A DNA stretch of 64,000 nucleotides from an uncultured Fibrobacter sp. (GCF_947166265.1 NZ_CAMVDO010000001.1:186001-250000), one strand, 5' to 3'. Counted from the first letter of the stretch, positions 3,268 to 18,907 are shown. Notes: generated by a model not told the origin, from the sequence alone. A program made the numbers and translations.

Positions 3268-4077
3268 TTACTTGAGCACGGCGTTCTTGCCAGAGACAGA
3301 ACCGTTGAGGTCGATGCGGACCAGGTAACGGCCACTCGGAACATTTTCGCCATTCCAACGTACCGTGTTGAAGCCCGGCTGGGCGTTGTCGGCACGGAGA
3401 TTTGCCACTTCAGCACCATCGGAGTTCAAGATGGTGACGATAGCAGTACCGGCAGACTTGGCATCAAAGCTCACTGCCTTACGGCTAAAGCCCTTGAGCA
3501 TTGCCGAAGCAGGCTTGTTCACATTCTTGGATGCCTTGGGAGCAAATTCATCGGCACGTTCCACATAAATGCCGTTCAGTTCCTTGGCGTTCACCTTTTC
3601 GTCTTCAGCAACGAGAGAGCCACGCTTGAGGACCGCCACCAGCTGTTTGGCACCTTCGGTCGCGCTTGCGTAAGTTTCAAGTTCCTGGGAGTTGAATTCC
3701 TTCTTGTCACCGTACCAAGCTTCGACACTTTCGCTCTGCAGATCCTTCACGGTAATCTGGGCACGGCGAAGCGTTGCCGTCATCGTATCGACTCCGCTTA
3801 CAAAGGTGAGTTCGAGCGGCTTGTTCACCTGGCCACGGAGCTGTTCCTTGGACTTTTCAATGTCGTTACCCTTGAGGCTCACCCCGTCGACGGCGATAAT
3901 CACATCGCCAGCCTGGAGCTTGGTTTCCGCTGCAGGAGTACCCGGAATGACTTCCGCCACCTTGACGCCGTCGCGGGTCTGGTAAATCGTCACGCCGATA
4001 CCGCCGAATTCTTCGTCGGCCATGATCGGAGCAGCAAGCATTGCAGCAACAAGAGAAGCCTTGATAAACTTGTTCAT
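3268..4077 (-). CDS. Secreted PDZ-domain protein with T9SS-like C-terminal module
   Basis: The 269-aa product starts MNKFIKASLVAAMLAAPIMA, a typical signal peptide. The start at 4077 is set by AGGAG seven bases upstream; a longer frame exists but lacks such a site. Residues about 25-105 form a PDZ domain (GIGVTIYQTRDGVKVAEVIP, LQAGDVIIAVDGVSLKG) without any attached protease domain. The C-terminal ~70 residues (TAIVTILNSDGAEVANLR, FNTVRWNGENVPSGRYLVRI) resemble FlgD-like or type IX secretion sorting domains. It is probably a periplasmic or surface binding protein; the ligand is unknown. It has its own promoter and terminator, so is probably monocistronic. Confidence 0.8.
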   Translation of the reverse strand: MNKFIKASLVAAMLAAPIMADEEFGGIGVTIYQTRDGVKVAEVIPGTPAAETKLQAGDVIIAVDGVSLKGNDIEKSKEQLRGQVNKPLELTFVSGVDTMTATLRRAQITVKDLQSESVEAWYGDKKEFNSQELETYASATEGAKQLVAVLKRGSLVAEDEKVNAKELNGIYVERADEFAPKASKNVNKPASAMLKGFSRKAVSFDAKSAGTAIVTILNSDGAEVANLRADNAQPGFNTVRWNGENVPSGRYLVRIDLNGSVSGKNAVLK

Positions 4078-4106
4078 AAATTCTCCTTGTAAATCCATTC
4101 GACCTA

Positions 4107-4134
4107 AATATATAATATTTAATCGTTTCGGCAA
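4107..4134 (-). promoter_or_regulatory. Promoter of the PDZ-protein gene
   Basis: On the minus strand TTGCCG (4129-4134) and TATATT (4107-4112) are separated by 16 bp, about 30 bp upstream of the start codon at 4077. This is a good sigma-70-type match. Confidence 0.65.
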
Positions 4135-4172
4135 CTGAATTTGTCAAGAAAACATTCCAAAATGCCGAACCC

Positions 4173-4201
4173 TTGACAAAAACGCCAAAATTTACTATAT
4201 A
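4173..4201 (+). promoter_or_regulatory. Strong promoter of the tandem AAA+ gene
   Basis: TTGACA (4173-4178), a 17-bp spacer and TATATA (4196-4201) match the sigma-70 consensus almost perfectly. The predicted transcript start near 4208 leaves an untranslated leader of about 150 nt before the ATG at 4360. Confidence 0.8.
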
Positions 4202-4275
4202 TGGGCTATGGTTGCGCACCAAAATCGCGCATTTATCAATTTTCAATAAAAAATTTTCCATAAAATTCTTTGAGA

Positions 4276-4361
4276 CCCCATGAAAAAATTTTTGGGGATA
4301 TTGTACCCTCTCGAAACCGGGTATGAGTTTCCAAAATTTTTTTCAAAAAAAGGTAACTCAT
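4276..4361 (+). promoter_or_regulatory. Structured mRNA leader overlapping the AAA+ start codon
   Basis: Two inverted repeats lie in the leader. CCCC (4276-4279) can pair with GGGG (4294-4297). ATGAGTT (4323-4329) is perfectly complementary to AACTCAT (4355-4361), which contains the first bases of the start codon and lies directly after the weak ribosome site AGGT. The loop is very A/T rich. A hairpin hiding the start site is visible; a role in regulating translation is inferred. Confidence 0.5.
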
Positions 4362-6645
4362 GAATAAGAAAAACTATTTCCAAAACATCGCCCAACAACT
4401 CAACTGCAAAGCAGCTCCCGCCGAAAATGCAGGTCCGAGCTTCGCTCTGCTCAAAATCATGGAGTACTGGGTCCGTTTTCTGCAGACGGACTCCGACTAC
4501 CTGAACATCGAGCCGATCGTCGCTCTGATGAACTTTGAAACGCAGACCGAACTCGTCTACGCACTCGCTAAGATCGAAGAGCAAAATCTGCGGCTTCCCG
4601 CCTCCGTCGCGTCTAAGGTAAATTACTGCGGGCCTCACGGTCGCCAGTTTCTAAAGAAGTACCCGAGCGCAGACTACCACTTCGAGGTGAAGCACTGCAT
4701 CAACAACATCAAGCATCTCACCCGCGACGTATTCACCGAAGAAGAATGGAAAAAGTTCAAGAACACTGTCATTCCGCTGTTCCTGAAGTTCGCATGGAAC
4801 GAGCTCAACAAGGGTGTCGCCGAAAACGACACCACCATGGAACGAATCGAAAAATTGCAAAATCTGTCCCACCTGCAAGATGACGAAATCGAAATCATCT
4901 TGTATCTCTGGCTGCAGGAATACGACGAAATGGAAGTCACGGCTAAAAAGAAGGGCCCCTCCACGGGAAATCGAAGCCGCTATATGGAAAAGGACTTCGA
5001 TTTGATTTCTGTCGCGACCGGACTCTCCAAGCAGAGAGTGTCCGATTTGCTCAACGGCGAATCGCTCCTCGCAAAGCTCGGTCTCATTAACGAAGAAGTC
5101 GATCTCGAACGCGACATCATTTTCCATTTGAATGGACAAAGCGAAATCACTAGGATTAGCAACGTCGAAATGGCCGAAGCCCCCAAAATTCCGTTCAAGA
5201 CACTCGCCAAGGACCGCCCCGAAGCAGAAACACTCGTGTATCTGCTCAAGAATCACGATTACAAGAAGCCACTCAACATTCTATTCTACGGTCGTGCAGG
5301 TACAGGAAAATCGGAACTCGCGAAGGCGCTCGCCCAGGAAGTCGGGCTTCCGATGTATGTCACCAAGACAAGCGACAAGAGCGAACGTTACGGAAACGAT
5401 CTCACCAATCTTTCCGACACCATACTCCGTCGCCGTGTGCGCGCTATCCGTTTCATTGCCATCAACAACGAAAATGCGAAAACCATCATTTTGGTCGACG
5501 AAGCGGACCAGATGCTGAACAGTTTTGAAAAGGGCGCGCTCAACATGCTCATGGAAGACGTCCACACCCCGATCATCTGGATATCTAACTCCATGGACCA
5601 TGTCGAAGAAAGCACCTGTCGCCGGTTCGACTATTCGATGGAATTCCAGAATTTCACGGCAGAAAAACGCGCCGTGCAGTTGCAGTCTGTGCTGGAAACA
5701 TTCCACGTTCCGCATCTGATCAGCGAAGAAGAAGTGAAGTCCATTGCCGCGGAATACCCCGTGACAGTAGGCGGCTACACCAAAGCCGTCCAGAACGCCA
5801 TTCCCGCGGCAAAGCAGAAAAAAGTCAATCCCGTAGACATTATCCGCAGGACGCTCGACGCCCACGCCAATCTGCTGAACATCTCCTGCGACAACACTCG
5901 CGACAAGACGACACACTCCCCTGCGTACACACTCTCCGGACTCAACATAGACCAGAATATCACCGACATTTTGGAAATCGCCACAAATTTCAACGGAATC
6001 TGGGACCATCTCGACGGGAGTTCCGCCGCACAGTCGCTAAACATTCTCCTGTATGGCGCTCCGGGTACCGGCAAGACCGAATTCGTACGGTATCTCGCCC
6101 GCAGTCTGAACAGGAATCTGGTCATCAAGCGAGCAAGCGATTTGCTCGGAAAGTACGTCGGCGAAACTGAAGCAAACATCAAGGCGGCATTCAGCGAAGC
6201 CGAAGAGAGCAAGGCAATACTCTTCTTCGACGAAGCGGACAGTTTTCTCAGCGACCGCAACAATGCCGAGCGCAATTTCGAAGTGCAGCAGGTCAACGAA
6301 CTGCTGACGCAGATGGAAAATTTCAACGGCATTTTCATTGCCGCAACAAATTTCAACGGACGTCTCGACAATGCATCCCGTCGCCGGTTCGCCATCAAGG
6401 TCAAGTTCGACTATCTCACCCGCGAAGGCATCGAAACTGTTTGGGATTCGTTCTTCCCGAAGCTCGAATGTCCCGAGTACGTCAAGCGCATGACGAATCT
6501 CGCTCCGGGCGACTTCGGCGCCGTCTACAACCAGCTGCGTTACATGCCCGCACACAGGCTCTCCGCCGACTGCATCGCAAAAGCGCTCGAACGTGAAATC
6601 GAGGCGAAAGAAGGAGTTGAAAATAAAAGAAGGATGGGATTCTAA
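4360..6645 (+). CDS. Tandem AAA+ ATPase with novel N-terminal region
   Basis: The 761-aa protein has two AAA+ modules. The first has Walker A GRAGTGKS (about 311-318) and Walker B IILVDEAD (376-383). The second has Walker A GAPGTGKT (566-573), Walker B ILFFDEAD (620-627), sensor-1 region IFIAATNFNG and the Arg-rich SRRRF (673-677). The second domain is a classic FtsH/Cdc48-like AAA; the first is more divergent but keeps its catalytic motifs. The N-terminal 270 residues match nothing I recognise, apart from a helix-turn-helix-like stretch around 219-232 (ATGLSKQRVSDLLN). No protease domain, signal peptide or membrane segment is seen. It is probably a remodelling or unfolding machine. It has a strong promoter and a structured leader, and shares a terminator with the convergent gene at 6732. 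Confidence 0.82.
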   Translation: MNKKNYFQNIAQQLNCKAAPAENAGPSFALLKIMEYWVRFLQTDSDYLNIEPIVALMNFETQTELVYALAKIEEQNLRLPASVASKVNYCGPHGRQFLKKYPSADYHFEVKHCINNIKHLTRDVFTEEEWKKFKNTVIPLFLKFAWNELNKGVAENDTTMERIEKLQNLSHLQDDEIEIILYLWLQEYDEMEVTAKKKGPSTGNRSRYMEKDFDLISVATGLSKQRVSDLLNGESLLAKLGLINEEVDLERDIIFHLNGQSEITRISNVEMAEAPKIPFKTLAKDRPEAETLVYLLKNHDYKKPLNILFYGRAGTGKSELAKALAQEVGLPMYVTKTSDKSERYGNDLTNLSDTILRRRVRAIRFIAINNENAKTIILVDEADQMLNSFEKGALNMLMEDVHTPIIWISNSMDHVEESTCRRFDYSMEFQNFTAEKRAVQLQSVLETFHVPHLISEEEVKSIAAEYPVTVGGYTKAVQNAIPAAKQKKVNPVDIIRRTLDAHANLLNISCDNTRDKTTHSPAYTLSGLNIDQNITDILEIATNFNGIWDHLDGSSAAQSLNILLYGAPGTGKTEFVRYLARSLNRNLVIKRASDLLGKYVGETEANIKAAFSEAEESKAILFFDEADSFLSDRNNAERNFEVQQVNELLTQMENFNGIFIAATNFNGRLDNASRRRFAIKVKFDYLTREGIETVWDSFFPKLECPEYVKRMTNLAPGDFGAVYNQLRYMPAHRLSADCIAKALEREIEAKEGVENKRRMGF

Positions 6646-6663
6646 AATGTTCGGACATAGCAC

Positions 6664-6697
6664 AAAAGCCGCCGGCATTTTCGCCGACGGCTTTTTT
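6664..6697. terminator. Bidirectional terminator between convergent genes
   Basis: AAAGCCG-CCGGC pairs with GCCGA-CGGCTTT with one small mismatch. A-runs and T-runs on both sides allow it to end both the AAA+ gene (plus) and the gene at 6732 (minus). Confidence 0.8.
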
Positions 6698-6731
6698 CAT
6701 AATTCAATTTTACCCGCAAATTAGGCAGGCA

Positions 6732-7970
6732 TCATCCTTTAATATAGCGGATTTTATCTTCGGTTCTAAGCCCCTGATAATCACCTTCGAACCTATTGCC
6801 ACCCACATTCTTTTTAGAAAAGCAGACAGAATCGTTTCGGTTCATTTCGAACATATCGCCCGCACGAAACCCCTGAAGGGCTGAATCATGCATCAACACA
6901 TACTCCACCTTTTCCTGATAAGTGTACATGTTCGTGAACTTGTCCGGATCACATAGGTGCAGAAGCCCGTTGCGGACCTGTGCCGAAGAATCCTTTCTGA
7001 CTTTCAAGATATAATCCACCAGAGCGGCTTTCACTTCGGCCACCGTGTTGAACTTCGGGCGCCTCGGCCAGGACAAGAAGCGTTCAAAAATGGAATAAAT
7101 CAACTTCAGGTCCCTTCGCATTCCAAGCACCTGGACATTCCACACCCCCATATCAGGATAAGCCGGAGTTTCAAGATCCATCAATTGTCCATACGCGCCA
7201 CAACCGAGAGCAACATTGTTCGCCCCCAAGGACCAAAGCCAATAAAGATGGCACGCAATCATCAAATAGACCTTGTTCTTTTCAATGAACGAATCTCGCC
7301 ATTCCTGATAAGCCTTCAGTTCCTCCGAATACAATGTCTTTCGCTCCTCATATTCCTTCAAACGGGAGTCGTAGCGCTCCATGTATTCGTTATACCTCTT
7401 TTCGAAATTTTCCATGCGAACCCGATTCTTTTCATCGCGTTCTTTGACATCCTGCTCATATTTGAGCATTTTCGCCTGGTATTCTTCGTCGGTATCCTTC
7501 TTTTTGCGCTTGGGGACCACTATTTCCTTATAGTCCCCCGGTCTTACTGGCGGATTGAACATAGGTTCGATCGGTTCCTCCGGCTTTTCAAGCAAATTTT
7601 CATCTAAAAATTTGCAAACATCGTCCCTATACTGTACACACTTTGTATTGTAGCCATCGAAATAACGCTTGTATTCCTCCTGCGACATCCCACTGTTCTT
7701 GATCGATCTTGCAGAGAAACTAAACCGGACGAATGTCTGCCCCAAGATCAGCTCCAAAAAAGACGGAACTGGAGTACCATCGGCAGCATTCAAAGTTTCA
7801 AATTCAACAGAACCATCTTCACGCTCAACGGGCGGTTTCGAGAAATCGACTAGACGATCTTCCAAAACGGTCTTCGACAAAAAAGCGTCGAACAACTTAT
7901 AAACCGTTTCCTGCCCCGGAACAGCAAAACGTCCCGACACTTTAGCATTAACATTGTTGGATTCGCCCAT
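6732..7970 (-). CDS. Stand-alone McrB-N-like protein with charged coiled-coil insertion
   Basis: The 412-aa protein has no ATPase motifs. Its C-terminal part (LMIACHLYWLWSLGANNV, LIYSIFERFLSWP, VRNGLLHLCDPDKFTNMYTY) resembles the N-terminal region of many McrB-like AAA ATPases, where a Leu/Trp helix and an (R)xxLLHLxxPDxFexI motif recur. That likeness is from memory of the family, not a search. Residues about 20-70 (YKLFDAFLSKTVLEDRLVDF) also recur in the neighbour ending at 8035. Residues about 128-230 are an insertion of strongly charged predicted coiled coil rich in Glu, Lys, Arg and Tyr that the neighbour lacks. The start ATG at 7970 has GAGAGG upstream. It is convergent with the AAA+ gene. 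Function unknown; a sensor or adaptor for the nearby ATPase is a hypothesis. Confidence 0.7.
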   Translation of the reverse strand: MGESNNVNAKVSGRFAVPGQETVYKLFDAFLSKTVLEDRLVDFSKPPVEREDGSVEFETLNAADGTPVPSFLELILGQTFVRFSFSARSIKNSGMSQEEYKRYFDGYNTKCVQYRDDVCKFLDENLLEKPEEPIEPMFNPPVRPGDYKEIVVPKRKKKDTDEEYQAKMLKYEQDVKERDEKNRVRMENFEKRYNEYMERYDSRLKEYEERKTLYSEELKAYQEWRDSFIEKNKVYLMIACHLYWLWSLGANNVALGCGAYGQLMDLETPAYPDMGVWNVQVLGMRRDLKLIYSIFERFLSWPRRPKFNTVAEVKAALVDYILKVRKDSSAQVRNGLLHLCDPDKFTNMYTYQEKVEYVLMHDSALQGFRAGDMFEMNRNDSVCFSKKNVGGNRFEGDYQGLRTEDKIRYIKG

Positions 7971-8034
7971 TTTGACCTCTCATTTGAAACATATATAAAA
8001 TTTTCAAAAAAAAAGCAAGGAAAAAAGGGGGTGG

Positions 8035-8955
8035 CTACCCCATTTCCACACCACAGAGCCGATCCATGATATAGCGGATCCTGTCCTCGGTACGGTCTGC
8101 ACGATAGACAATATTGTCTTCCACACGGCCAATGCGCTTAGAATAGTAGACACTATCTTGTTCCTGCAGCGTACTGAAACTGCTTGACTTATAATAGCGC
8201 AGCAACGATGAATGATGCTCAATCCATTCCATTTTCATTTCGTAATCATAGATATTGATATACTTATCAGGATCGCACAGATGCAGCATGCCGTTTCGAA
8301 CCGGAGCATTCAAATCAATTCGCGTTTTAAAGACGAAGTCAACCATAGCGGACTTGATTTCGTCTACATTCTTGAATTCAGGCTTGTTCGGCCAAGTCAT
8401 AAAACGATGCAGAATGGAATAGACCAGCAGCAGCTCCTTTTTCAGACCCATCGCAGAAATGTAGGCATCCCACAGCCCCTCTTCCGGATTATAGCCATTC
8501 AGAACGCCCATCCAGTCTTCCTTGATACCGGCAAGTTTGCCGAACTTGCCGCACGACGTCTTGACCCCGGACATACCCAGAGACCACAGCCAGTGCAGAT
8601 GAGCAATCAAAACGAGCTCACCCTTATGAGCAGCCTTCCAATCGGCATTCTTGAGAAATTCCCGCAGAACGGCTGCTGGAGCATTGATGATAAACTCAAC
8701 GCTCTTTTTATATGCTTCGTCACCCTTTTTACCGCAGAGCAGTTTCGAAAACAAAACCGGCTGACCGTTTTCGTCTTCAAGCGTCGCGAACTCTACCTGA
8801 CCATAGTAGTCAACAGCGTATTTCGAGAAATCAATCGCCTTACCTTCGAGAATGGTCTTTGCGATAAACGCATCGAACAGGTTGTAGACGACTTCCCTGT
8901 CTTCGTCGAAGAAGCGCTGAAAAGAACGGATGTTGTTGGTGTTTGTTGTTTCCAT
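8035..8955 (-). CDS. Stand-alone McrB-N-like protein, paralogue of the 6732 product
   Basis: The 306-aa protein starts METTNTNN at 8955, chosen because TAGGAG lies eight bases upstream. Its beginning (VVYNLFDAFIAKTILEGKAI) and end (VRNGMLHLCDPDKYINIYDY, RTEDRIRYIMD) align clearly with the product of 6732-7970, but it lacks the charged coiled-coil insertion. Shared landmarks are HLxWLWSLG, a xMTWPNKPEFK block and RNGxLHLCDPDK. Like its paralogue it has no Walker motifs, signal peptide or membrane segment. The gap to the paralogue is 64 bp, but each gene seems to have its own A/T-rich leader. A promoter of very good quality lies at 9120-9148. Function unknown. Confidence 0.7.
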   Translation of the reverse strand: METTNTNNIRSFQRFFDEDREVVYNLFDAFIAKTILEGKAIDFSKYAVDYYGQVEFATLEDENGQPVLFSKLLCGKKGDEAYKKSVEFIINAPAAVLREFLKNADWKAAHKGELVLIAHLHWLWSLGMSGVKTSCGKFGKLAGIKEDWMGVLNGYNPEEGLWDAYISAMGLKKELLLVYSILHRFMTWPNKPEFKNVDEIKSAMVDFVFKTRIDLNAPVRNGMLHLCDPDKYINIYDYEMKMEWIEHHSSLLRYYKSSSFSTLQEQDSVYYSKRIGRVEDNIVYRADRTEDRIRYIMDRLCGVEMG

Positions 8956-9119
8956 AATGGATCTCCTATTAAAAAAACTTTTTTTGAAAAAATTTTTGAG
9001 AGTTATAAGGGGTTTTGAGTAGATATAGTGGTAAAACCCCGAAATTTTCAAATTTCAGACAAATTAAAAAGCGGCGATTTTTATTAAAAAATTAAAATAC
9101 CAAACCCATAAGCTAGATA

Positions 9120-9148
9120 AATATAGTAAAAATTGCCATATTTGTAAA
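9120..9148 (-). promoter_or_regulatory. Promoter of the McrB-N-like gene at 8035
   Basis: On the minus strand TTTACA (9143-9148), 17-bp spacer, TATATT (9120-9125). The spacer is almost the same as that of the promoter at 10910-10938, suggesting shared control. The leader to the start codon is about 155 nt, and its last part is A/T rich. Confidence 0.75.
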
Positions 9149-9157
9149 GGGGGCTAA

Positions 9158-9221
9158 TTGTCAGGAATTGTCATTTAGACAAAATCTCCATTTATAACGA
9201 TATAGAAAAAAAATGGAGATT
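9158..9221 (+). promoter_or_regulatory. Promoter with overlapping palindromes upstream of the caspase-like gene
   Basis: TTGTCA (9168-9173), 17-bp spacer and TTTATA (9191-9196) form a promoter. TTGTC/GACAA (9168-9181) is an inverted repeat over the -35 box, and TTGTCA is also repeated ten bases upstream (9158). An 11-bp perfect inverted repeat pairs 9183-9193 with 9211-9221, covering the -10 box on one side and the GGAG ribosome site on the other. These look like operators; if transcription starts near 9203, the left arm would not be in the mRNA. Confidence 0.5.
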
Positions 9222-9224
9222 ATT

Positions 9225-9785
9225 ATGAATTCCTGTACAGTCATCTTTTCTAACATGGGCGACACAGACACTCTGGTTCTCAAGCACATCTGGGAAGGGC
9301 TCCCGAATGTGAAAGTCATTGAGGTCAACAACCACAATGGTCCCTGGGCCAAAAAAGTGGATTCCGCCATTCTCGCCGAAAAAGACACACTTATATTATG
9401 CGGCCACGGCTACCCCAGCGGACTCCTGTCGCCGCAAATGCACGGCGAACAGTTTCTCGTTTCCGAAAGGAACGTGCGCTACATCAAGGCGAAACACGTC
9501 ATCGGAATCTGGTGTTACGCATCGTCGTTCGCCAAGAGTGTCAACCTGAACGGATTTTTCTCGTCGATGTTCATCAGCAACCCCATCGAGGCGCACATCA
9601 ATGGTTGCACCCGCTCCGATGCGGCAACCATCACCCGCGAAGAAATTCTGTTCGGCCAGCGTCTGAACCAACTCATCGCAAGCGACACTCCCATGGGCGA
9701 ATGGAAGGACAAACTGATCGAACAGGCCGATATGAACATCGATATCGTGAAGTTTAATTACAAGGGACTGACATACTTGGGGTAA
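9225..9785 (+). CDS. Small protein with caspase-like His/Cys pair
   Basis: The 186-aa product starts MNSCTVIFSN at 9225, six bases after GGAG; an ATG at 9213 lies inside that site. The sequence has the layout of a minimal caspase-fold (clan CD) domain: a hydrophobic strand then His in TLILCGHGYPSG (His61), and a second strand then Cys in VIGIWCYASSFAK (Cys97). After that comes GFFSSMFISNPIEAH. The GHG and strand-Cys spacing suits a catalytic dyad, but no search was possible and the family could be catalytically dead or different. No signal peptide or membrane segment. It is divergent from the 8035 gene and convergent with the DUF285 gene, and has an operator-like upstream region. Confidence 0.6.
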   Translation: MNSCTVIFSNMGDTDTLVLKHIWEGLPNVKVIEVNNHNGPWAKKVDSAILAEKDTLILCGHGYPSGLLSPQMHGEQFLVSERNVRYIKAKHVIGIWCYASSFAKSVNLNGFFSSMFISNPIEAHINGCTRSDAATITREEILFGQRLNQLIASDTPMGEWKDKLIEQADMNIDIVKFNYKGLTYLG

Positions 9786-9799
9786 AACTCCCCTGCAAC

Positions 9800-9858
9800 A
9801 TTCCGGCCTGAACAGCCGGAATAAAAAAAGCCCGCTGGAATGAACGCCAGCGGTTTTT
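9800..9858. terminator. Double hairpin terminator between convergent genes
   Basis: ATTCCGGC/GCCGGAAT (9800-9822) is a perfect inverted repeat. A second hairpin, CCGCTGG/CCAGCGG (about 9831-9853), is followed by TTTTTT on the plus strand and by CTTTTTTT on the minus strand, so it can end both the caspase-like gene and the DUF285 gene. Confidence 0.8.
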
Positions 9859-9879
9859 TAGTATTATATATAATGTTAG

Positions 9880-10758
9880 TTAAAAATCATAATCACTGCC
9901 GAACATATACTCTTTACTAACCACTTTCGACATATTCCACTTGCTGATGTCACCCTTGTAATGTGAATTATAGAACATAGATCTCATACTTGTCACGTTC
10001 GACACATCCCACTGGCTGATGTCGCCTTCAAATACAGAGTCATAAAACATCAAACTCATATCCGTTACCTTAGATACATCCCACTTGCTGATGTCGCCAT
10101 TGAACGCGGACGTACCAAACATTTCCTTCATATTCTCCACATTCGACACATCCCACTTACTGATATCGCCGTTGAAAATAGATTCAGAAAACATCAGATT
10201 CATATCCGTCACCTTAGATACATTCCACTGACTGATATCACCGTTAAAACGCGAACTTTCAAACATTGACGCCATGTACATTACATTCGACACATCCCAC
10301 TTGCTAATGTCTCCATGGAACCTGGTGTACATAAACATTCTATCCATAACCAACACGTTTGACACATTCCATTGGCTAACGTCACCATCAAACATAGAAC
10401 TGCAGAACATGCCGTTCATACTTTGTACACTGGATACATCCCACTTGCTAATATCGCCATTGAATCGAGAATGGCTGAACAATCCGAACATATTCTCCAC
10501 GTTGGACACGTCCCACCGGCTAATGTCACCATTGAACATGCTCCTCTTTTCCGCCTTTCTATTTAGCTCAGCAAAATCAACTGGGCCAACATCTTCATCA
10601 CGGTCATAACAACCGAGCACAGGATCGAACAACCCGCTCATGTCCGTCACCTGCGATACGTCAATAAAATTCAAATCGCATTCGGGACCATTTTCTTCAA
10701 CAGCCTTGTCGATGAGTTGAATGAGATGCTTTCTATCGCGAGCGATAACCTTAACCAT
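9880..10758 (-). CDS. DUF285 (BspA-type) repeat protein, cytosolic
   Basis: The 292-aa protein has an N-terminal cap ([37 protein letters not shown]) and then about nine tandem 24-residue repeats of the form [20 protein letters not shown]. These are DUF285/BspA-type repeats, which form a leucine-rich-repeat-like solenoid. Many family members are surface proteins, but this one has no signal peptide, lipobox or sorting domain, so it is probably cytosolic. The repeats are also visible as 72-bp DNA repeats. The start at 10758 has AAGGAG upstream. Its promoter (10910-10938) nearly copies that of the 8035 gene. Role unknown; a recognition scaffold is possible. Confidence 0.85.
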
Positions 10759-10909
10759 AGTGCGACTCCTTTTTTTGAATTTTTTTTGGAAAAAAGATTG
10801 AAATTTGGGGGATACAGTGAAAAACTCGAAAAATCCTAAAATTTTTCTCTAACAAAAACCAACAATTTATATTAAACAATTAAAAAATCAAACTCATAAA
10901 AGCCGAGCA

Positions 10910-10938
10910 AATATAGTAAAAAAAGCCATATTTGTAAA
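10910..10938 (-). promoter_or_regulatory. Promoter of the DUF285 gene
   Basis: On the minus strand TTTACA (10933-10938), 17-bp spacer and TATATT (10910-10915). The whole element differs from the 9120-9148 promoter in only a few spacer positions, and the downstream leader is also related (A/T rich with a CAAAAAAAG run before the ribosome site). Confidence 0.75.
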
Positions 10939-10954
10939 GTCAGAATTTGACATT

Positions 10955-10980
10955 AGAAAAGCCCCCTCAGAGAGGGGGCT
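10955..10980 (-). terminator. Terminator of the 11085-15531 operon
   Basis: AGCCCCCTC pairs perfectly with GAGGGGGCT around AGA (10960-10980). On the minus strand the stem is followed by TTTTCT. It lies about 100 bp after the stop codon at 11085. Confidence 0.8.
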
Positions 10981-11084
10981 AAAGGTTGCCAAATTGAATT
11001 CAATTAAACATCCATAAATTCTACATCAGAAAAAATTTCAAATTTAGATTTTCTCGAAGCCGGATTGCCTACATCATTATTATC

Positions 11085-12311
11085 TTATTTCTGTTCATCT
11101 GAATTGTACCCAACCTTCAAAACAGCCATGATTCCGTTCAGATGGGACTGAACCCTAGTTGAAATACCCGACTTAGCCTCATCCGGGATATTCCATTTGA
11201 GCAAGGCATCGTCCAACAGCCCCTGCATTGCATCGAAGATACATGACAAAACGAATTCACTTGACCTATCGGGAAAAACATTACGCATCAAACCAAGAAG
11301 GTTTAAGATATAATGGACGTCTTTTGCTTGGAATCCCACTTCGGGGTCTCTTTTGGAAAGTATTTTCCAATAGTTCAACCCTATCCGAGGCCACCCCGTC
11401 AACGTTCCATAGAATTCATCAATCCCTTCGGAGAAGGTATGCTTATAATACCTTTCATCATTAATCGCAACACCAACTGCGAAATGGAACAAAAGAACAC
11501 TAGATAGAACAAAGTGACGACCGGGCTTTGCTTCGGACAAAGCCAAGTTCCTTTTTTCGGCATCAGGCCACTTTTCAGTCCGTTCATAATCATCGATGCC
11601 GAACCACCCTTTTTCCCTATCCTCAAAGATATTCTTAATATCTTCTTTGTATTCATGCTGCAAATAATCCTCAATAACGGGGGTCTTTGTATTTAACAAA
11701 ATAGACAGCATTTTTTGAGTATTTTCATTTGCACAGTCGACGATACGTGATTTTACATCATTGGAAATGTCTAGGCGGAACAGTTCTTCTTGTAGCAATC
11801 TCTGCAACACATCAAAGATACTTGCGAGTTGAAACCGGTAATTAAGAAAAGGGATCACCAGACCATAACGATCCAAGAGTTCATTCAAGCCATCGAGCTT
11901 TTTCTGTGAATATTTTGCCGAAAATTCTTGCCATATATCCAAACCAAAATCAGGCCATCCTGAATGGTCAAGAAATTCTTGAAATTTGTCAGAGTCCATG
12001 AACTCTTCATATGCGGCTTCATTGGGAGATTTATAACCGTTGTGGTTCATATCGTCCTTAATCGTGATGTAGGCCATCAACTGATACAGGAAAATGCTTG
12101 AAAAGACGAAATGCCTCAGCGGATCAGTTTCAGCACGATTATCAATTTTAGATTTCGCATCAGCGGCATTAAAATCACGCAGCCAAGGGCAGCGTCCATT
12201 TTCATATTCATAATCCTTCTGGAATATGAAGCGGAGATCGTCCATGTACTCGTTGCGCAGATAGTTCTGAATATAATCCCTGGTTAATTGTTCTAGGTAA
12301 TTTTGATTCAT
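11085..12311 (-). CDS. Unknown protein with internal duplication (operon gene 3)
   Basis: I do not recognise this 408-aa soluble protein. It consists of two related halves of about 200 residues: YLRNEYMDDLRFIF...RHFVFSSIFLYQLMAYITIKDD in the first corresponds to YLQHEYKEDIKNIF...RHFVLSSVLLFHFAVGVAINDE in the second. The later SIFDVLQRLLQEELFRLDI likewise matches CIFDAMQGLLDDALLKWNI. It is predicted all-helical. The hydrophobic segment after RHFV could be a buried or membrane-associated helix; there is no signal peptide. It is the last gene of a three-gene operon (32-bp gap after the 12344 gene, ribosome site AAGGG). Function unknown. Confidence 0.75.
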   Translation of the reverse strand: MNQNYLEQLTRDYIQNYLRNEYMDDLRFIFQKDYEYENGRCPWLRDFNAADAKSKIDNRAETDPLRHFVFSSIFLYQLMAYITIKDDMNHNGYKSPNEAAYEEFMDSDKFQEFLDHSGWPDFGLDIWQEFSAKYSQKKLDGLNELLDRYGLVIPFLNYRFQLASIFDVLQRLLQEELFRLDISNDVKSRIVDCANENTQKMLSILLNTKTPVIEDYLQHEYKEDIKNIFEDREKGWFGIDDYERTEKWPDAEKRNLALSEAKPGRHFVLSSVLLFHFAVGVAINDERYYKHTFSEGIDEFYGTLTGWPRIGLNYWKILSKRDPEVGFQAKDVHYILNLLGLMRNVFPDRSSEFVLSCIFDAMQGLLDDALLKWNIPDEAKSGISTRVQSHLNGIMAVLKVGYNSDEQK

Positions 12312-12343
12312 TTTTGCCCTTCTTTCCGTTGTTCAGTCCCTTA

Positions 12344-13798
12344 CTAGTTCTTTCCTTTCTTAGAATTTTCGCGCTGATCCATCAAAACGTAATGCAAATC
12401 CAAAGTATTCAAATCATTCAGAATTGCATTACGCATTTTTTTCGAACACAATTCACTAGAATACTTTTTCAGCAAGTCGTTTTTCCAAGTTCGTTCGGCC
12501 CTAGGATTCAACTTTGTTGCAGTAGCCCTTTCAAATTCATGATAGATTTGCGTCATTTCTCTAAAGGCAGGCAATTCATTCTTATGTTTTTTCATTTTTT
12601 CTGCCAAAGAGACTATATGATCTATAGAAATATCACCCTTATATTGAGTACGAAGAGGAACAACCTTTTTTCCATCCGCATTATAAGTATACAATTCAAA
12701 TACTTTTGAATTTTTCAAGACAACCATTACGCGTTTATCGTTCAAGAAGCACATTTTCTCAACATCTTCAAAACGATAGGCTTCGTCTTTTCCCAATACG
12801 ACCATATCACGCAATCCAGACACCATCCATTCATTAAACGCTTTGTCTTTCGCCTTATGGAATATGGCCGTAATCAATCTAACTGGAAACAGCAAATCAA
12901 CACTTGCTGGGTAATAACGACTCTGCGTTTTCAAACGGTTCTTAAAAATATTAAACAGTTCTTTCTGAGAGAACTCTTCAAGGACACCATCTGCCGTGCT
13001 TATCTCTCTTGAAACACGTACTTTCTTTTCTTTAGTAATCTTTTGCGGAGTAACTTCAGGATATGTTATTTCCTTTACACTTTTCGTTCGTTTCTCATCA
13101 GTTTCATATCCTTCGACATCAAATTCTTCATTCAAGAACGAATCGAACTGATTAAAACCGCTGCCAATATCAGTCCACTTTTTACGATTTACCTGTTTTT
13201 GCTCATTTATAAAAACAATAACATCAACATATGCTTTTGATATATCCTTTTTCGACTTACTTTTGTATGCGGAAATAACATTTTCAAAAGAACCCGATCC
13301 ATTTTTTTCATTATAGCCATCGTGCAACTGATTTATATAGGAGCGATACGATGCTATAGAAGCCGCAGTTGACAGGATTTCTTTTTCATCAAGCCAGACG
13401 CCAAAGGCTTTCTTCAAATACTCAAAGTCAACTACATCATTCTTATCAATTGCCTTAACGGTCGCGGAAGACTTTGATTTGGGATTGGAAGTCACCTTAT
13501 TTGATGAGCCCTTCTTAAAATCCATATACGACTTCGCTGCACTTTTTAAAGAAGCCAAAATTTTGCGAATACTTCCATTCACAATTAATCCTCGAGGCGC
13601 CGGACGAGAATGCCGCTCATCATCTGCAGAATACTTCAGTTTTTCCAACAGACTTGTTCCCTGATCAGTTATAAATTCTTTATCCAGATCAAGCTTTAAC
13701 TCACTCTCAATCTTTCCACAGCGAGACAAGACACTAGAGACAACTCGACTGTTATGTCCTTTGCTTTCAAGCCACTTTTTAAACTGATTTTCCTGCAT
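12344..13798 (-). CDS. Unknown basic protein with repeated SAM-like domain (operon gene 2)
   Basis: The 484-aa product is Lys-rich and not assigned to a family. A helical module at residues 5-95 (FKKWLESKGHNSRVVSSVLS, ending with a KSAAKSYMDF helix) recurs near residues 130-235 (FGVWLDEKEILSTAASIASY, then FNQFDSFLNEEF). A third copy sits in the neighbouring ATPase (FFKWLTKQVKPNVLNSYKTG). Its layout resembles the N-terminal core-binding (SAM-like) domain of tyrosine recombinases, which is an inference. The C-terminal 200 residues (SQKELFNIFKNRLKTQSRYY, VMVVLKNSKVFELYTYN) are distinct. There is no catalytic motif I recognise. It follows the ATPase gene by 44 bp with AAGGAAAA as ribosome site. 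Confidence 0.72.
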   Translation of the reverse strand: MQENQFKKWLESKGHNSRVVSSVLSRCGKIESELKLDLDKEFITDQGTSLLEKLKYSADDERHSRPAPRGLIVNGSIRKILASLKSAAKSYMDFKKGSSNKVTSNPKSKSSATVKAIDKNDVVDFEYLKKAFGVWLDEKEILSTAASIASYRSYINQLHDGYNEKNGSGSFENVISAYKSKSKKDISKAYVDVIVFINEQKQVNRKKWTDIGSGFNQFDSFLNEEFDVEGYETDEKRTKSVKEITYPEVTPQKITKEKKVRVSREISTADGVLEEFSQKELFNIFKNRLKTQSRYYPASVDLLFPVRLITAIFHKAKDKAFNEWMVSGLRDMVVLGKDEAYRFEDVEKMCFLNDKRVMVVLKNSKVFELYTYNADGKKVVPLRTQYKGDISIDHIVSLAEKMKKHKNELPAFREMTQIYHEFERATATKLNPRAERTWKNDLLKKYSSELCSKKMRNAILNDLNTLDLHYVLMDQRENSKKGKN

Positions 13799-13842
13799 GG
13801 TATTTTCCTTTTTGTTTTATAATTCTAAATCATATTCAAAAT

Positions 13843-15531
13843 TTATCCCTGGAAAGCAGCCTGTTTCCAGTCGTCAGATTCATCATCACCGGCATACAGA
13901 GCCTTGTACGTGTTGATGAACAGCCTAAAGTTGAGTGATTTGCCTTCCATCCGCGGGTCGTTCAGGAATTCCTTGGAACTAATCCAGTCAAAAACCTTCT
14001 TTTTCTTTGCTTTGTCGGAGATGTCGCGCCCAGCAGCATCGGTTATCTTGAAATTATTCAAAAGGCCTTTTAGCCTATCCAAAATTTCGGAATTTGTGAG
14101 CAGGACCTCTATTGACGTAGCTCGGGTTACAAGAGCTTCATCCAATTTCTTGATTTCACTCTTTTTCATATTCGAGATAATGATTACCGAGCCATTGAAG
14201 AAGAAATGGTTTGGCATTCCCATGCGACCATCATGCTTCTTAGACCAACGTTCCAAGCATTCGGCAACTTCATCATTATCCATGCAATCTGTCGTATCTA
14301 CAACATCCTTGCTATCGGAACCCCAAAACACTTCGCGGACGTCGTCGGAATCCAAGGCGCTCTTGAGCACGGAACGCCCCTCCACATTCTGCAAAACGGA
14401 ATCACAGTCGTCAAATACGCAAATTTTGTTCTGATTCTTGTAAAGAAACTTATAGACATTAATCGGCGTACACTTCGTCTTCAGGATATTGTAATCCACC
14501 GGGCGCTTATGGCCATAGGCCTCCAGCACACTGCTGACCGCATAGGTCTTGCCGATTCCGCCATTTCCCGAAATAAACAAAGCCTTTCCAATACCCTTAG
14601 CAATGACGGATACCGCTTTTTTCATGGCGTTAAAGGACTTTGAAGGATCGGCAAAGATTTCCTGTTCCGCCTTTTTGTCCAATTTGGGAAGGACTTTCTC
14701 ACGAGCAGGATTCTTCTCCAGAGAAATCTTCTTGGGCGGTTCCTCAACCTCAGTGACTTCCTGAACCTTTGCCTTTTTTGACTTGCTCGAACTTGTCTTT
14801 TTTACAGGAACAGCCGCCTTCGGCTCCTCTTTCTTCACCTTTCGAGCAGGTTTCTCTGCTACAGCTTTTTTCGGGACCTCTTTTTTCGGTTCCTGGGTTT
14901 TCATGAATTCGGCCAACTTACGAACGGATGCACGGGCCGCACCAGACGACTGATCCCCTACATTCGCTTTCGCACCACCCGCATAATAGTCAGGTAGCAC
15001 AGTTTCGGCGAGAGGCGCAAAATCGTCAAATTCCATTCGAGCCTCATTGAGAACCTTGCGTAAGCCCGTCTTATAACTGTTAAGTACATTCGGCTTAACC
15101 TGCTTGGTAAGCCACTTGAAGAATTTCTTTTGCAATGAAGTTTCGGTCATTAGAACACGGGGTAGCCTGCGAACTGGCCGAGGTTGTTCTACTACATCCC
15201 CAACATCTTCGGAGGTCTCCGTTTCTTCGTCAGAGTCATCTTCCGGTTCGTATTCTCCGGCATGCGTAGATGATTTAGTTCTACCATTCTTTTGCGAAGA
15301 CATTTCTGCCAACAGAGCGTCGATGTCGCCTTCGAACAGTTCAACATCGGCCGGAGCATGATACTGGCCTGTTGCCTTAAGATACTTGTATATTTTGAGG
15401 TGATCCTTTATTTTAGATTCCGACCAGTATGTTTTTAGCTCTTTCCAAAGCACTTTGTAAATACTCGAAATATCCTTGCCAGCTTCATACAAAGCCACAA
15501 TCGCCTCAACAGGCCCCGAAAAATCACTCAT
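13843..15531 (-). CDS. Phage-type AAA ATPase with shared SAM-like domain (operon gene 1)
   Basis: The 562-aa protein has an N-terminal region (1-85) possibly DNA-binding, an acidic linker (about 90-115), one copy of the FFKWL helical module (137-210) shared with its operon partner, a Lys/Ala/Glu-rich disordered linker (210-275) and an ATPase domain (about 295-540). Walker A is GNGGIGKT (322-329), Walker B is ICVFDDCD (370-377), sensor-1 is VIIISNM (449-455), with conserved Arg in ALVTRATS. The spacing and the YKFLYKNQNKICVFDDCDSV block resemble ATPases found in tailed phages. It is the first gene of a three-gene operon that ends at 10955-10980. Its start has a weak AAGG ribosome site. Role unknown; motor of a defence or mobile-element system is possible. 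Confidence 0.78.
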   Translation of the reverse strand: MSDFSGPVEAIVALYEAGKDISSIYKVLWKELKTYWSESKIKDHLKIYKYLKATGQYHAPADVELFEGDIDALLAEMSSQKNGRTKSSTHAGEYEPEDDSDEETETSEDVGDVVEQPRPVRRLPRVLMTETSLQKKFFKWLTKQVKPNVLNSYKTGLRKVLNEARMEFDDFAPLAETVLPDYYAGGAKANVGDQSSGAARASVRKLAEFMKTQEPKKEVPKKAVAEKPARKVKKEEPKAAVPVKKTSSSKSKKAKVQEVTEVEEPPKKISLEKNPAREKVLPKLDKKAEQEIFADPSKSFNAMKKAVSVIAKGIGKALFISGNGGIGKTYAVSSVLEAYGHKRPVDYNILKTKCTPINVYKFLYKNQNKICVFDDCDSVLQNVEGRSVLKSALDSDDVREVFWGSDSKDVVDTTDCMDNDEVAECLERWSKKHDGRMGMPNHFFFNGSVIIISNMKKSEIKKLDEALVTRATSIEVLLTNSEILDRLKGLLNNFKITDAAGRDISDKAKKKKVFDWISSKEFLNDPRMEGKSLNFRLFINTYKALYAGDDESDDWKQAAFQG

Positions 15532-15560
15532 AGCAAATAACCTTCATCCTTAGAAAACTT

Positions 15561-15587
15561 ATAAAGAAGGGGCGAATTTATCGCCCC
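15561..15587 (-). terminator. Terminator after the Fib_succ_major gene
   Basis: GGGGCGA and TCGCCCC (15569-15587) form a 7-bp perfect stem, followed on the minus strand by TTCTTTAT. It separates the 15604 gene from the downstream operon. Confidence 0.65.
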
Positions 15588-15603
15588 TATATCTTGGCAG
15601 ATA

Positions 15604-16620
15604 TTAATCAGCGTTCTTGATACAACGGAGGAAATAGTGATTCGACTTGTTTTCCAACGAGGGACGATTTTCCCAACCAGTCGTAATAAAAACAACTGCA
15701 GAATCAGAGCCGGTTTCATTCACAGTCCACAACCACACTGGACGTGAGACTGAATCGTCTTCTTCATATGGAACACCATCCTCAAACAAGCCGCCCATCA
15801 ATTTTTCAGCATCTTCTTCGAGCTTCGCCATCTTATTCTTTATATTTTCTTTTAACACCATAAATTCCGAAACAGATGGAATATGCCACCCTATCGGGGC
15901 GATGCCCTGATATTTAGTCCCCTTGAACGGATCATTGGAGTTCCAGGAAGATTCGTATCCTTCAGTTACCATTTTATCATAAAGCGGCAATGCAATCTTG
16001 TTCATGCAACTAGGCATATTCATCACAGCTGCCCATGTGTATTTCAAGGATTCACCCTCTTTTAGGAATCTTTCAGGAAGACCATCATCCAAATTTTCAA
16101 GGTTCCCTTCTACTGTAGCCCATCCTCCTTCAAATCGCAAATTTTCAGCCATCCAAACTTGGTTGCCGATTTTAAAGCATTTGTATTTTTGTCCATCGCG
16201 AATGTCCGTAAACATGCCAAACTGGGGTTTGCCTTCTACTGCAGGTTCCCAGTCAATATCAGAAGAAGTCTTCGCTGTTTCGTGAACAAACTTATCAGCA
16301 TTTTTCTGCTTTATTCGCGCTTCATTATTTTTCAACCATGCTTTTACATTACTCAATGAGCCGTCATACCACTGGGATGTCATCAAGTAAACCTTCCCAT
16401 CAGGGCGTTTTATTGGTGCAGATTGATAATACCTAATTTTTTGATTATCTTCATTAACTTCTGACTGCAATTTCAGAAAAGGAATTGTGTCAGCCTCACT
16501 TCTAAGCCCAAAAATTCTTCTCGCATTCTCTGCGTCAAGCAGTTTTGCAAACTCAGCATCATCCAACTTTGCAACTGCCGGAATTAAATCATTTTGAACT
16601 AGTTTGCCAATTTTTTCCAT
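15604..16620 (-). CDS. Cytosolic Fibrobacter major paralogous domain protein
   Basis: The 338-aa product starts MEKIGKLVQND at 16620, with AGGAG nine bases upstream. The C-terminal two thirds is a Fib_succ_major (TIGR02145-type) domain: DIRDGQKYKCFKIGNQVWMA, a GWHIPSVSEF landmark, and the closing FLRCIKNAD. In Fibrobacter these domains are mostly on secreted lipoproteins. Here there is no signal peptide or lipobox, and the N-terminal 130 residues (LDDAEFAKLLDAENARRIFG) form an unknown helical domain. It belongs to the accessory block and is divergent from the ADP-ribosylglycohydrolase. Ligand or activity unknown. Confidence 0.82.
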   Translation of the reverse strand: MEKIGKLVQNDLIPAVAKLDDAEFAKLLDAENARRIFGLRSEADTIPFLKLQSEVNEDNQKIRYYQSAPIKRPDGKVYLMTSQWYDGSLSNVKAWLKNNEARIKQKNADKFVHETAKTSSDIDWEPAVEGKPQFGMFTDIRDGQKYKCFKIGNQVWMAENLRFEGGWATVEGNLENLDDGLPERFLKEGESLKYTWAAVMNMPSCMNKIALPLYDKMVTEGYESSWNSNDPFKGTKYQGIAPIGWHIPSVSEFMVLKENIKNKMAKLEEDAEKLMGGLFEDGVPYEEDDSVSRPVWLWTVNETGSDSAVVFITTGWENRPSLENKSNHYFLRCIKNAD

Positions 16621-16767
16621 TTTATCTCCTATGGTTATAAATTCCTTCACTAATATACATTTTTTTTACAAAAACAATAAAAATTCTTTTTCTTCCCCTA
16701 AAAGCCTTCTTTTATATCGCAAAAAAAGCGAGTTTAGTCAAAAAGTAATGCACTCATCCCCCTCCCC

Positions 16768-16798
16768 TTTACAAAATCCCCATAAAAAGCGATATTAT
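16768..16798 (+). promoter_or_regulatory. Promoter of the ADP-ribosylglycohydrolase gene
   Basis: TTTACA (16768-16773), 17-bp spacer, GATATT (16791-16796), with TATTAT overlapping. The start codon at 16823 and its AGGAG site follow closely. Confidence 0.65.
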
Positions 16799-16822
16799 AG
16801 GAGTAAAAAAATAGGAGAATTT

Positions 16823-17641
16823 ATGATAGGTGCAATTATCGGTGATACGGTGGGGTCGATTTACGAGTTTGACAACATCAAGACGAAAGATTTTGAGCTG
16901 ATCAAGGACGGCATTTCGCCCACAGACGACAGCATTTTGACATTCGCGACGGCGGATTGGATTATGCGCGGGGGCGAAGCATGGAAATACTATGTGGCAT
17001 ACGCGAGCAAGTACGATTGTCCGGTTGGCGGATACGGCGGCAGTTTCACCAGGTATGTCATCGATGCCCGCGCTACGGGACAGGGCAAGCCCTACGACAG
17101 TTGCGGTAACGGTTCTGCGATGCGCATCTCGCCGGTGGGTTGGGCATTCAACACTAAAGAAGAAATTCTTGCCAAGGCGAAGGAATCCGCGGAATGTACG
17201 CACAATCACCCCGAAGGCATCAAGGGTGCGCAGGCGACGGCACTTGCCATTTTTATGGCACGCAAGGGAGCTAGCAAAGACGAAATCAAGACGACCATGG
17301 AAAGCGAATTCGGCTACGATTTGAATTTTACGCTAGACGAGCTGCGTCCAGAATACAGTTGGGCTTACCCCGGAGCGGCCCTTTGCCAAGGAACAGTCCC
17401 GCAGGCGATCCGCTGCGTACTCGAAGCCACGGACTACGAAGACGCCATCCGCAACGCCGTTTCACTCGGCGGGGACAGCGACACTCTCGCCTGCATCGCA
17501 GGGGGAATCGCAGAACCCGTGTTCGGCGTTCCGAAAAAATTGTATACCATCGGGATGAATATTTTAAAGCATTACTTCCCGGAGCCGCACAAGCTCGTGA
17601 TCGATTTTGAGAAGAAATTCGGGAACCGAATTCTAGAATAA
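16823..17641 (+). CDS. ADP-ribosylglycohydrolase (DraG/ARH family)
   Basis: The family removes ADP-ribose from proteins, nucleic acids or small molecules using two metal ions. The 272-aa protein is close to the usual length of compact bacterial members. It begins MIGAIIGDTVGSIYE with the conserved GDxxGxxyE. It has the metal-binding TDDS at 34-37, a GNGSAMRISPVGW block, the NHPEGIKGAQATALAIFMA helix, and the C-terminal metal motif GGDSDTLACIAGGIAE. The start at 16823 follows AGGAG; a longer upstream frame is not supported. It stands beside accessory genes and has its own promoter. Its ADP-ribosylated target is unknown; no ADP-ribosyltransferase is visible in the window. Confidence 0.9.
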   Translation: MIGAIIGDTVGSIYEFDNIKTKDFELIKDGISPTDDSILTFATADWIMRGGEAWKYYVAYASKYDCPVGGYGGSFTRYVIDARATGQGKPYDSCGNGSAMRISPVGWAFNTKEEILAKAKESAECTHNHPEGIKGAQATALAIFMARKGASKDEIKTTMESEFGYDLNFTLDELRPEYSWAYPGAALCQGTVPQAIRCVLEATDYEDAIRNAVSLGGDSDTLACIAGGIAEPVFGVPKKLYTIGMNILKHYFPEPHKLVIDFEKKFGNRILE

Positions 17642-17663
17642 ATGCAACTTTTTCGCAAGAAGG

Positions 17664-17757
17664 GAGATCCCCGCCTGCGCGGGGATGACAAACAAGAAAA
17701 GAGGGGATGACATTCAAGAATACGGTGATGACATTTAAAGAGCGCGGGGATGACACG
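17664..17757. repeat. Cluster of GGGGATGACA palindromic repeats
   Basis: Three degenerate copies of a small element ending GGGATGACA, GGTGATGACA or GGGGATGACA. The first has the palindromic core CCCCGCCTGCGCGGGG. The same element occurs at 19935, 20656, 34520, 37620 and 60271. It belongs to the widespread REP-like class. Confidence 0.7.
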
Positions 17758-17774
17758 CAGCCGAGCGAGCAGCG

Positions 17775-18899
17775 TTACTCGAACATCATGCCTTCGTCTT
17801 CATCGCTTTCGCCGTCGTCGTAGTCATCCATAGACTTGTCGCCGCCGGGGACGATGATAAGGCCGAGCGTCACGGGGTCGCCCTTCATGTTCAAGTAGGC
17901 TTCGAGCCACAAGTTCGTGGAAAGGCGGAGCAAGCGCAGGTCGAGCATAGTGCCGCCCTTGTGGATGCTTTTCGGATTCAGGTTAAAGAAAAGGAACTTC
18001 TTGTTAATGTACTCGAAGCGGTCGTTTTCGTAGTTAATCGCCCAGTCAGAATTGCCGTCGTTTTCCTGACGGTAGGTGCAGCGGTCATTGTCGATGTCAC
18101 ATTCGAAACTTGCACTTTCGTGGTAGCGTTTGTTCCATTCGCGGCTAAAGGCGCAGCTCTGCACGCGGCCCGCCCCGTTGCGTTGCTTGTTCAGCTGGTC
18201 GTTGATAACCACGTAGTCCATCTTCTGATTTTTCACCTGTTCGTAGACATTCATCAAGATGATGTACGCTTCGATATCCTTGGGGCATTTTCCCGTCAGG
18301 TTCACGTCCTCGTGGGCTTTCAGGAGTGTCTGCTGCAGGTCTATGTCAATGGCATCGGGAATTTCGCTTTCCTTAATCTTGTCGAGCACCTTCTTGGGCG
18401 GGACAAAGACTACCTTGTCGCCTTTCTTGATGGCATAACCGAGCTGGTCGCGCACGTAATCCAAGCACTGCTGCACGTGAATATGCACCGTATTGGATCC
18501 GCCCGACACAAAGTCCACGCCAAAGCGCACATTCCATTCGCCAGCGGTGTTGCCGACATTCTTGTCGATTTCGCAGAAGGGATCTTCGCGGATACCGTCG
18601 ATAAACACGACCTTCGCATTGAGTTTCGTCACAAGCGATTCTTCTTTATCGATGACGCCCCCCAAGCTCCAGAAGTTCGGATTCAGGCGAAGTACTTCGG
18701 CAAAGGCCTTGTCGCCATCGAGCGCAGGGAGCAAGGAATCGTTGCGGGCATTCTTTTCCTTGAGGAGTTCGGAATATTCCGTGGTTACGGTCATGTTGCT
18801 AAAACCATTACGTGCCTGCGGAGCGGGAAACGCAAACGCAAGCGACGTCGCAAACAGGCTAAAAGCCGAGACAAGAGCAAATAGGGAAAAACGTTTCAT
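17775..18899 (-). CDS. Exported protein of unknown function with acidic C-terminus
   Basis: The 374-aa product starts MKRFSLFALVSAFSLFATSLAFA, a Sec signal peptide with no lipobox. I recognise no domain. The mature part has several short Cys-containing segments (NVGNTAGEWNVRFGVDFVSG, a CAFSREWNKRYHE region, CDIDNDRCTY) and ends in an Asp/Glu-rich tail (about 25 residues). It is likely periplasmic or surface exposed. The ATG at 18899 follows a GTG at 18902; a TATTTT box eight bases upstream and no ribosome site suggest a leaderless mRNA. It is divergent from nrnA and does not form an operon. Confidence 0.7.
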   Translation of the reverse strand: MKRFSLFALVSAFSLFATSLAFAFPAPQARNGFSNMTVTTEYSELLKEKNARNDSLLPALDGDKAFAEVLRLNPNFWSLGGVIDKEESLVTKLNAKVVFIDGIREDPFCEIDKNVGNTAGEWNVRFGVDFVSGGSNTVHIHVQQCLDYVRDQLGYAIKKGDKVVFVPPKKVLDKIKESEIPDAIDIDLQQTLLKAHEDVNLTGKCPKDIEAYIILMNVYEQVKNQKMDYVVINDQLNKQRNGAGRVQSCAFSREWNKRYHESASFECDIDNDRCTYRQENDGNSDWAINYENDRFEYINKKFLFFNLNPKSIHKGGTMLDLRLLRLSTNLWLEAYLNMKGDPVTLGLIIVPGGDKSMDDYDDGESDEDEGMMFE

Positions 18900-18907
18900 C
18901 ACCGTAT

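Follow-up and report, generated by a model that had tools for sequence, protein, structure and literature searches.

IetAS is an anti-phage system that consists of an AAA ATPase and a subtilisin-like protease. CHAT and other caspase-fold effectors occur in SAVED-CHAT, in TPR-CHAT/Csx29 and as the caspase-like proteases found with bacterial gasdermins, and the caspase-fold defence effectors known so far usually sit inside larger proteins. MoxR-vWA ternary conflict systems, in which AAA+ switches are combined with caspase-like outputs, were described by Kaur et al. (PMC7159879). Here we describe a locus in which a tandem AAA+ ATPase (A) and a small protein with a predicted caspase fold (D) form a two-gene core that, by the tests made, is a member of neither the IetAS nor the CHAT-type families.

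The window analysed is a 64-kb (64,000 nucleotides) stretch of DNA from an uncultured Fibrobacter sp., a rumen/gut bacterium. A preliminary description of positions 4173-10758, made from the sequence alone, had claimed five adjacent genes, and our reading of open reading frames in the window confirmed all five at 4360-10758. A (4360-6645, plus strand) encodes 761 amino acids, and D (9225-9785, plus strand) 186. B (6732-7970, minus strand, 412 aa) and C (8035-8955, minus strand, 306 aa starting METTNT) are paralogues, as had been proposed (approximately 38-42% identical), with B carrying a charged insertion. E (9880-10758, minus strand, 292 aa) is a DUF285 protein encoded by 72-bp repeats. A terminator-like hairpin lies between D and E (9832-9853; bidirectional, by pattern match only). 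In a Pfam scan, A matched PF00004 in two stretches (153 bits) and E matched DUF285 (357 bits), while nothing scored above the cut-off for B, C or D. Comparison with relatives gave dN/dS values of 0.08-0.22 for A, 0.14-0.23 for B and C (where computable) and 0.04-0.11 for D. This range (0.04-0.23) indicates purifying selection, and so genes A to D are maintained protein-coding genes rather than chance open reading frames.

A has an N-terminal region (residues 1-290; 4360-5229, plus strand) that contains no known domain and is the fastest-diverging part of the protein when identity is compared by region, followed by two PF00004 modules, in keeping with the double AAA+ ATPase with an unassigned N-terminus described earlier. 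Module 1 (5230-5859, plus strand) contains the Walker A motif GRAGTGKS, the Walker B motif IILVDEAD and an RRF motif, and module 2 (6043-6414, plus strand) contains the aromatic pore-loop motif KYVGETE. The Walker A, Walker B and arginine-finger motifs are intact in both modules across 11 relatives, and the aromatic pore loop of module 2 (Y/F-V-G) is kept in all 11 members of the A clade defined below. Judged by these motifs, A is probably a AAA+ machine of the protein-threading type. The nearest named model to A in PADLOC and NCBIfam is IetA, with which the locus shares a two-gene logic of AAA ATPase plus protease. However, A, with its two AAA modules, reaches 133 bits where the IetA cut-off is 510, D is predicted to have a caspase fold and not that of a subtilase, and a subtilase, the IetS partner, was absent among the neighbours scanned. 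IetA membership of A was ruled out by its score and by the type of partner, and PADLOC found nothing past single-AAA similarity. The MoxR-vWA systems resemble the locus in having an AAA+ switch and a caspase-like output, whereas A is a classical PF00004 tandem AAA protein and not a MoxR protein, and A has no vWA gene next to it in the window.

D was modelled with AlphaFold from a profile of 13 relatives (mean pLDDT 91.9, pTM 0.89). A Foldseek search with the model gave no match at an E-value of 0.001. When the Foldseek candidates were realigned, SAVED-CHAT ranked highest (Z 12.6 over 160 residues, 3.0 Å), and further matches were found to caspase-1 (Z 10.2), separase (10.1), gingipain (9.9), MALT1 (9.7), Csx29 (9.6) and legumain (approximately 9-10). 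Nearly all of the PDB matches listed belong to clan CD, the exception being the anti-sigma factor DdvA at rank 2, and the best viral model matching D is a caspase domain protein. His61, in a GHG motif (codon 9405-9407, plus strand), and Cys97, in a WC motif (codon 9513-9515, plus strand), are invariant in 30 bacterial and phage relatives. The confident model and its fold matches support the earlier suggestion of a caspase-like protein: D is predicted to adopt a caspase fold of the clan CD type, and the His-Cys dyad suggests that it is proteolytic. D shares this fold, the dyad and a defence setting with the CHAT and other caspase-fold effectors. In contrast to them, it stands as a lone protein of 186 aa beside a tandem AAA+ ATPase partner and comes from a family encoded mainly by phages. 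It also matched no known caspase-fold family (C14, C25, CHAT), and searches of Pfam (E ≤ 1) and NCBIfam (E ≤ 0.1) gave nothing for it. A lone caspase-fold domain of this size is unusual among defence effectors.

To follow the pair beyond the window, we examined a sample of 111 Fibrobacteraceae genomes, mostly MAGs. D is present in 14 of these and a single A clade (support 100/100) in 11, all of which also have D (hypergeometric probability 7.7e-13, ignoring relatedness). The D copies that match the A clade likewise form a single clade in the D tree (support 100/99); three genomes (G047, G048, G108) have D without the A clade. Beyond the copies listed here, no further D was found in the wider Fibrobacterota, the order of the Spirochaetales MAG or the family of the Bacteroidales MAG, and no D relative was matched on plasmids. 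The pair reaches another genus, and the LptD proteins of carriers are 96 to 73% identical to that of the window, with non-carriers interspersed between them, and so the carriers do not represent one strain cluster. The preliminary description would have been refuted had co-occurrence been confined to closely related Fibrobacter strains, and for A with D this is not the case. The co-occurrence may nevertheless partly reflect shared descent. A and D lie on different contigs in two genomes (G023, G067). At linked loci they have the same orientation, with variable genes between or beside them that are mostly on the opposite strand, and in G018 and G101 they are tandem same-strand neighbours with gaps of approximately 15 and 100 bp. 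The preliminary description had noted an absence of co-transcription, which is true for the window, but these two tandem arrangements, and the promoters and leaders shared by the accessory genes, qualify it. We consider it very probable that A and D are functional partners, and they may be in physical contact.

Comparison with colinear relatives showed that the block is part of a larger insertion. In relatives that lack the pair, a PDZ-protein gene (3268-4134 in the window) and the gene at 17775-18902 adjoin, with flanks within approximately 60 bp; in the window, 13.6 kb of inserted DNA (approximately 4150-17775) separates them. The island thus runs past the end at 10758 given in the preliminary description, with further cargo to approximately 17775. 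This includes a Fib_succ_major protein, an ADP-ribosylglycohydrolase-like gene (16631-17641, plus strand) and three closely spaced minus-strand genes (11085-15531; 408, 484 and 562 aa, with a P-loop in the last) whose relatives are also seen at other D loci. The ADP-ribosylglycohydrolase-like gene recurs near D in G037 and G067 and could be carried along with the module. In G101, which belongs to another genus, the same site has an insert of A and D alone; in G018 it has a DUF285 gene along with D and A, and in G056 a C5-methylase, an AAA_5 protein and an LlaJI-type endonuclease (L159:2417-6885), that is, a restriction-modification system. The presence of this system in a relative is consistent with a defence-type setting for the locus. 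A second site is used in G063, where A and D lie within an insertion (L089 3123-14681) that is missing in three relatives and in which D is 30 bp from the edge; A is 97% identical between G063 and G018 despite the different sites. In all, there are two genomic sites, each with pair-less relatives, and A and D are a movable module. In G037, the variable cargo includes a PP2C phosphatase, a kinase-like protein and a vWA protein. At the second site in G064 there is a zinc-ribbon protein with a Peptidase_C25 domain, gingipain-type and also of clan CD (L270:2391-4001).

Genes at such sites could be neighbours by virtue of the site alone, in which case A to E would merely share an insertion hotspot and A and D would not be functional partners. 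Unrelated genes occupy the site in G056, the accessory genes vary, and several genomes have D without A, all of which such sharing would explain. It would not explain why all 11 genomes of the A clade have D even where the two genes are unlinked (G023, G067), or why the insert in another genus consists of just A and D, and we regard it as highly improbable.

The preliminary description had also claimed individual promoters and leaders; these are real, and the leaders carry more weight than they were given there. The A promoter (4173-4201, plus strand; TTGACA-17-TATATA) begins exactly where that description had placed the start of the block, at the TTGACA box, and is of the type seen in accessory-gene promoters. 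Aligned with those of G063, G018, G078, G023, G019 and G033, it has a similar core in all seven carriers. C, and with it B, is preceded by a promoter (TTTACA-17-TATATT) and a conserved 5' leader (8956-9165, minus strand), and the leader and promoter region of E (10759-11000, minus strand) is homologous to that of C. This homology extends over approximately 200 bp upstream of both genes and is also seen in the leaders of C, E, F-like and H-like genes and of a 114-aa gene in other carriers. Approximately 250 kb of carrier loci contain 19 occurrences of the box CTT[TG][AT]CAA..TTTTTACTATATT, compared with a single one in approximately 790 kb of other Fibrobacteraceae loci; the loci compared had been picked for A or D. 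In the 64 kb window, the second half of the box is present at two positions, both of them inside the island; shuffles predict 0. The core promoter box is also present in viral contigs and is thus non-specific, and so only the long leader homology was used to link accessory genes. A sigma-70 scan, uninformative by itself, found 9 sites versus 9.1 expected. A structured RNA in the shared leader was considered and rejected (no Rfam match; RNAalifold -0.01 kcal/mol, 5 pairs). Since A and the accessory genes share a promoter type and the accessories share the leader of approximately 200 bp, the block looks co-regulated though it is not one operon. The long leader homology suggests a single regulon with swapping of accessory genes at repeated leaders, and leader pieces with no following gene (e.g. 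L085 16719-16822) would fit such turnover.

The accessory proteins are frequent companions of the pair. Relatives of C and B scoring above 150 bits were found in eight genomes, each with the A clade and D, and 8 of the 11 carriers have DUF285 genes near A or D, against a rough chance expectation of 1-10% per genome derived from approximate locus counts. The block is a two-gene core of A and D with B/C and E as frequent optional accessories. Of the five-part sensor, switch and effector system proposed in the preliminary description, the association of A with D therefore stands and the equal standing of the five parts does not. Its naming of B and C as McrB-N-like found no support either: there was no similarity to McrB-N in Pfam, NCBIfam, PADLOC or PDB sequences, no local AAA_5 protein aligned to the B/C profile, no McrC nuclease partner was found among the island proteins scanned, and the mostly helical model of C (pLDDT 81) had no match in the PDB above Z 2.6. 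These empty profile and fold searches lend the McrB-N identity no support, and failing to match any listed fold does not by itself make a fold new. A match to C in G016 (858-aa frame) was dismissed as a chance match to a beta-propeller-type protein. Elsewhere in the genome of the window, L001 (G000:C2:256568-260023) encodes a McrB-like AAA protein of 719 aa with an N-terminus unlike B/C and a 352-aa neighbour that is McrC-like by position. Many other Fibrobacter genomes encode short relatives of C (approximately 233 aa; L018-L034), which in the loci read lie next to helicase or type I methylase-like genes. B/C and E may act as accessory sensors, substrates or regulators.

Relatives of D were searched for in 50,697 phage records. 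All 15 Lak megaphage records carry one (37-40% identity), and beyond these there were an unverified fragment and four records with short, weak matches. In IMG/VR, 73 D loci were found on contigs with a median length of 134 kb, 27 of them of at least 200 kb, with long contigs favoured by having more genes. The viral carriers include many rumen phages of 100-425 kb. One IMG/VR contig of 415,750 bp (IMGVR_UViG_3300028832_000001; L196, L201) has two copies of D, separated by approximately 25 kb, which share 56% and 45% identity with the D of the window. The D family is mainly viral, and its prevalence in megaphages suggests that the module probably uses a viral-type enzyme. An A relative lies near D in only one of the 73 IMG/VR loci, and the lack of a neighbouring A-like ATPase in all other cases suggests that D can act alone. 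The D tree places bacterial copies at separate points among the phage rows, and the direction of transfer is an inference. No description of a caspase family of huge or jumbo phages was found in the limited body of literature searched.

This distribution raises the question of whether D has a selfish or phage-derived function, as a phage-satellite gene or anti-competitor protease, with A as its partner and the island a mobile element or satellite and not a host defence. Such an origin would account for the predominance of D in megaphages, for the nesting of bacterial D in the viral tree and for the TTGACA/TACTATATT promoter type common to the island and the D-carrying phages. It sits poorly with a minimal insert of just two genes and with the island proteins scanned by Pfam, among which no integrase or capsid gene was recognised, and we judge it improbable.

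D is also found next to AAA+ machinery outside the Fibrobacteraceae. Spirochaetales MAGs have an operon of a SpoVK-like AAA gene, ClpP and D with gaps of approximately 10 bp (L133:6365-9550; also L134 and L135), which makes a second and separate case of D paired with AAA+ machinery. Downstream of it are genes for a small protein and then a degenerate AAA-like protein. A, for its part, is one of a large set of paralogues found in nearly every Fibrobacteraceae genome, many of which lie elsewhere in the genomes with no D as neighbour. D-less paralogues (L099, L104, L105, L110, L113, L114, L120) are often near a conserved 296-aa gene that is DUF58-like by eye, and so the tandem AAA family has homes other than beside D. 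A ring ATPase with a pore loop beside a protease recalls the Clp-type pairs, the more so as the Spirochaetales operon even includes ClpP. The pair could thus perform regulated proteolysis not aimed at phages, with A as an unfoldase that hands substrates to D or remodels it and with the genes gained horizontally for another benefit. The KYVGETE pore loop and intact ATPase sites of A would suit such a role, as would the AAA-ClpP-D operon and the paralogues without D. However, the caspase-fold type of D is not known to form a compartment, and to our knowledge caspase-fold proteases are not compartmental. The patchy, mobile distribution of the pair and the restriction-modification alternative at the same site also argue against it, and we consider this explanation unlikely.

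We favour, at a probability of roughly 0.5, the reading that A and D are a movable module: A, a tandem-ring AAA+ ATPase, would control D, a minimal caspase-fold cysteine protease, or supply it with substrate, and phage defence is the likeliest job of the module. An antiviral purpose is somewhat probable, and there is about an even chance that A gates D. Infection would be sensed by A or would trigger it; by ATP-driven remodelling, A would then activate D or deliver its substrate, and D would cut a host or phage protein. C/B and E could serve as sensors, as substrates or as inhibitors, differing from one lineage to another. A wider scenario, which we offer tentatively and think rather doubtful, is that the D family is proper to megaphages and that bacteria captured it at least twice, each time wiring it to an AAA+ machine (the tandem AAA in Fibrobacteraceae, the SpoVK-like AAA with ClpP in Spirochaetales). 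Phage copies may then blunt or mimic the host module, in an arms race over one enzyme.

The natural two-gene versions in G101 and G018 make the proposed partnership of A and D directly testable, and the presence of the same enzyme in viral and bacterial copies offers a clean host-virus comparison. If the favoured reading is right, a compact AAA+/caspase-fold pair would be added to the prokaryotic conflict systems, and a caspase-fold protein for which the libraries searched contain no family model would prove to be common in megaphages.
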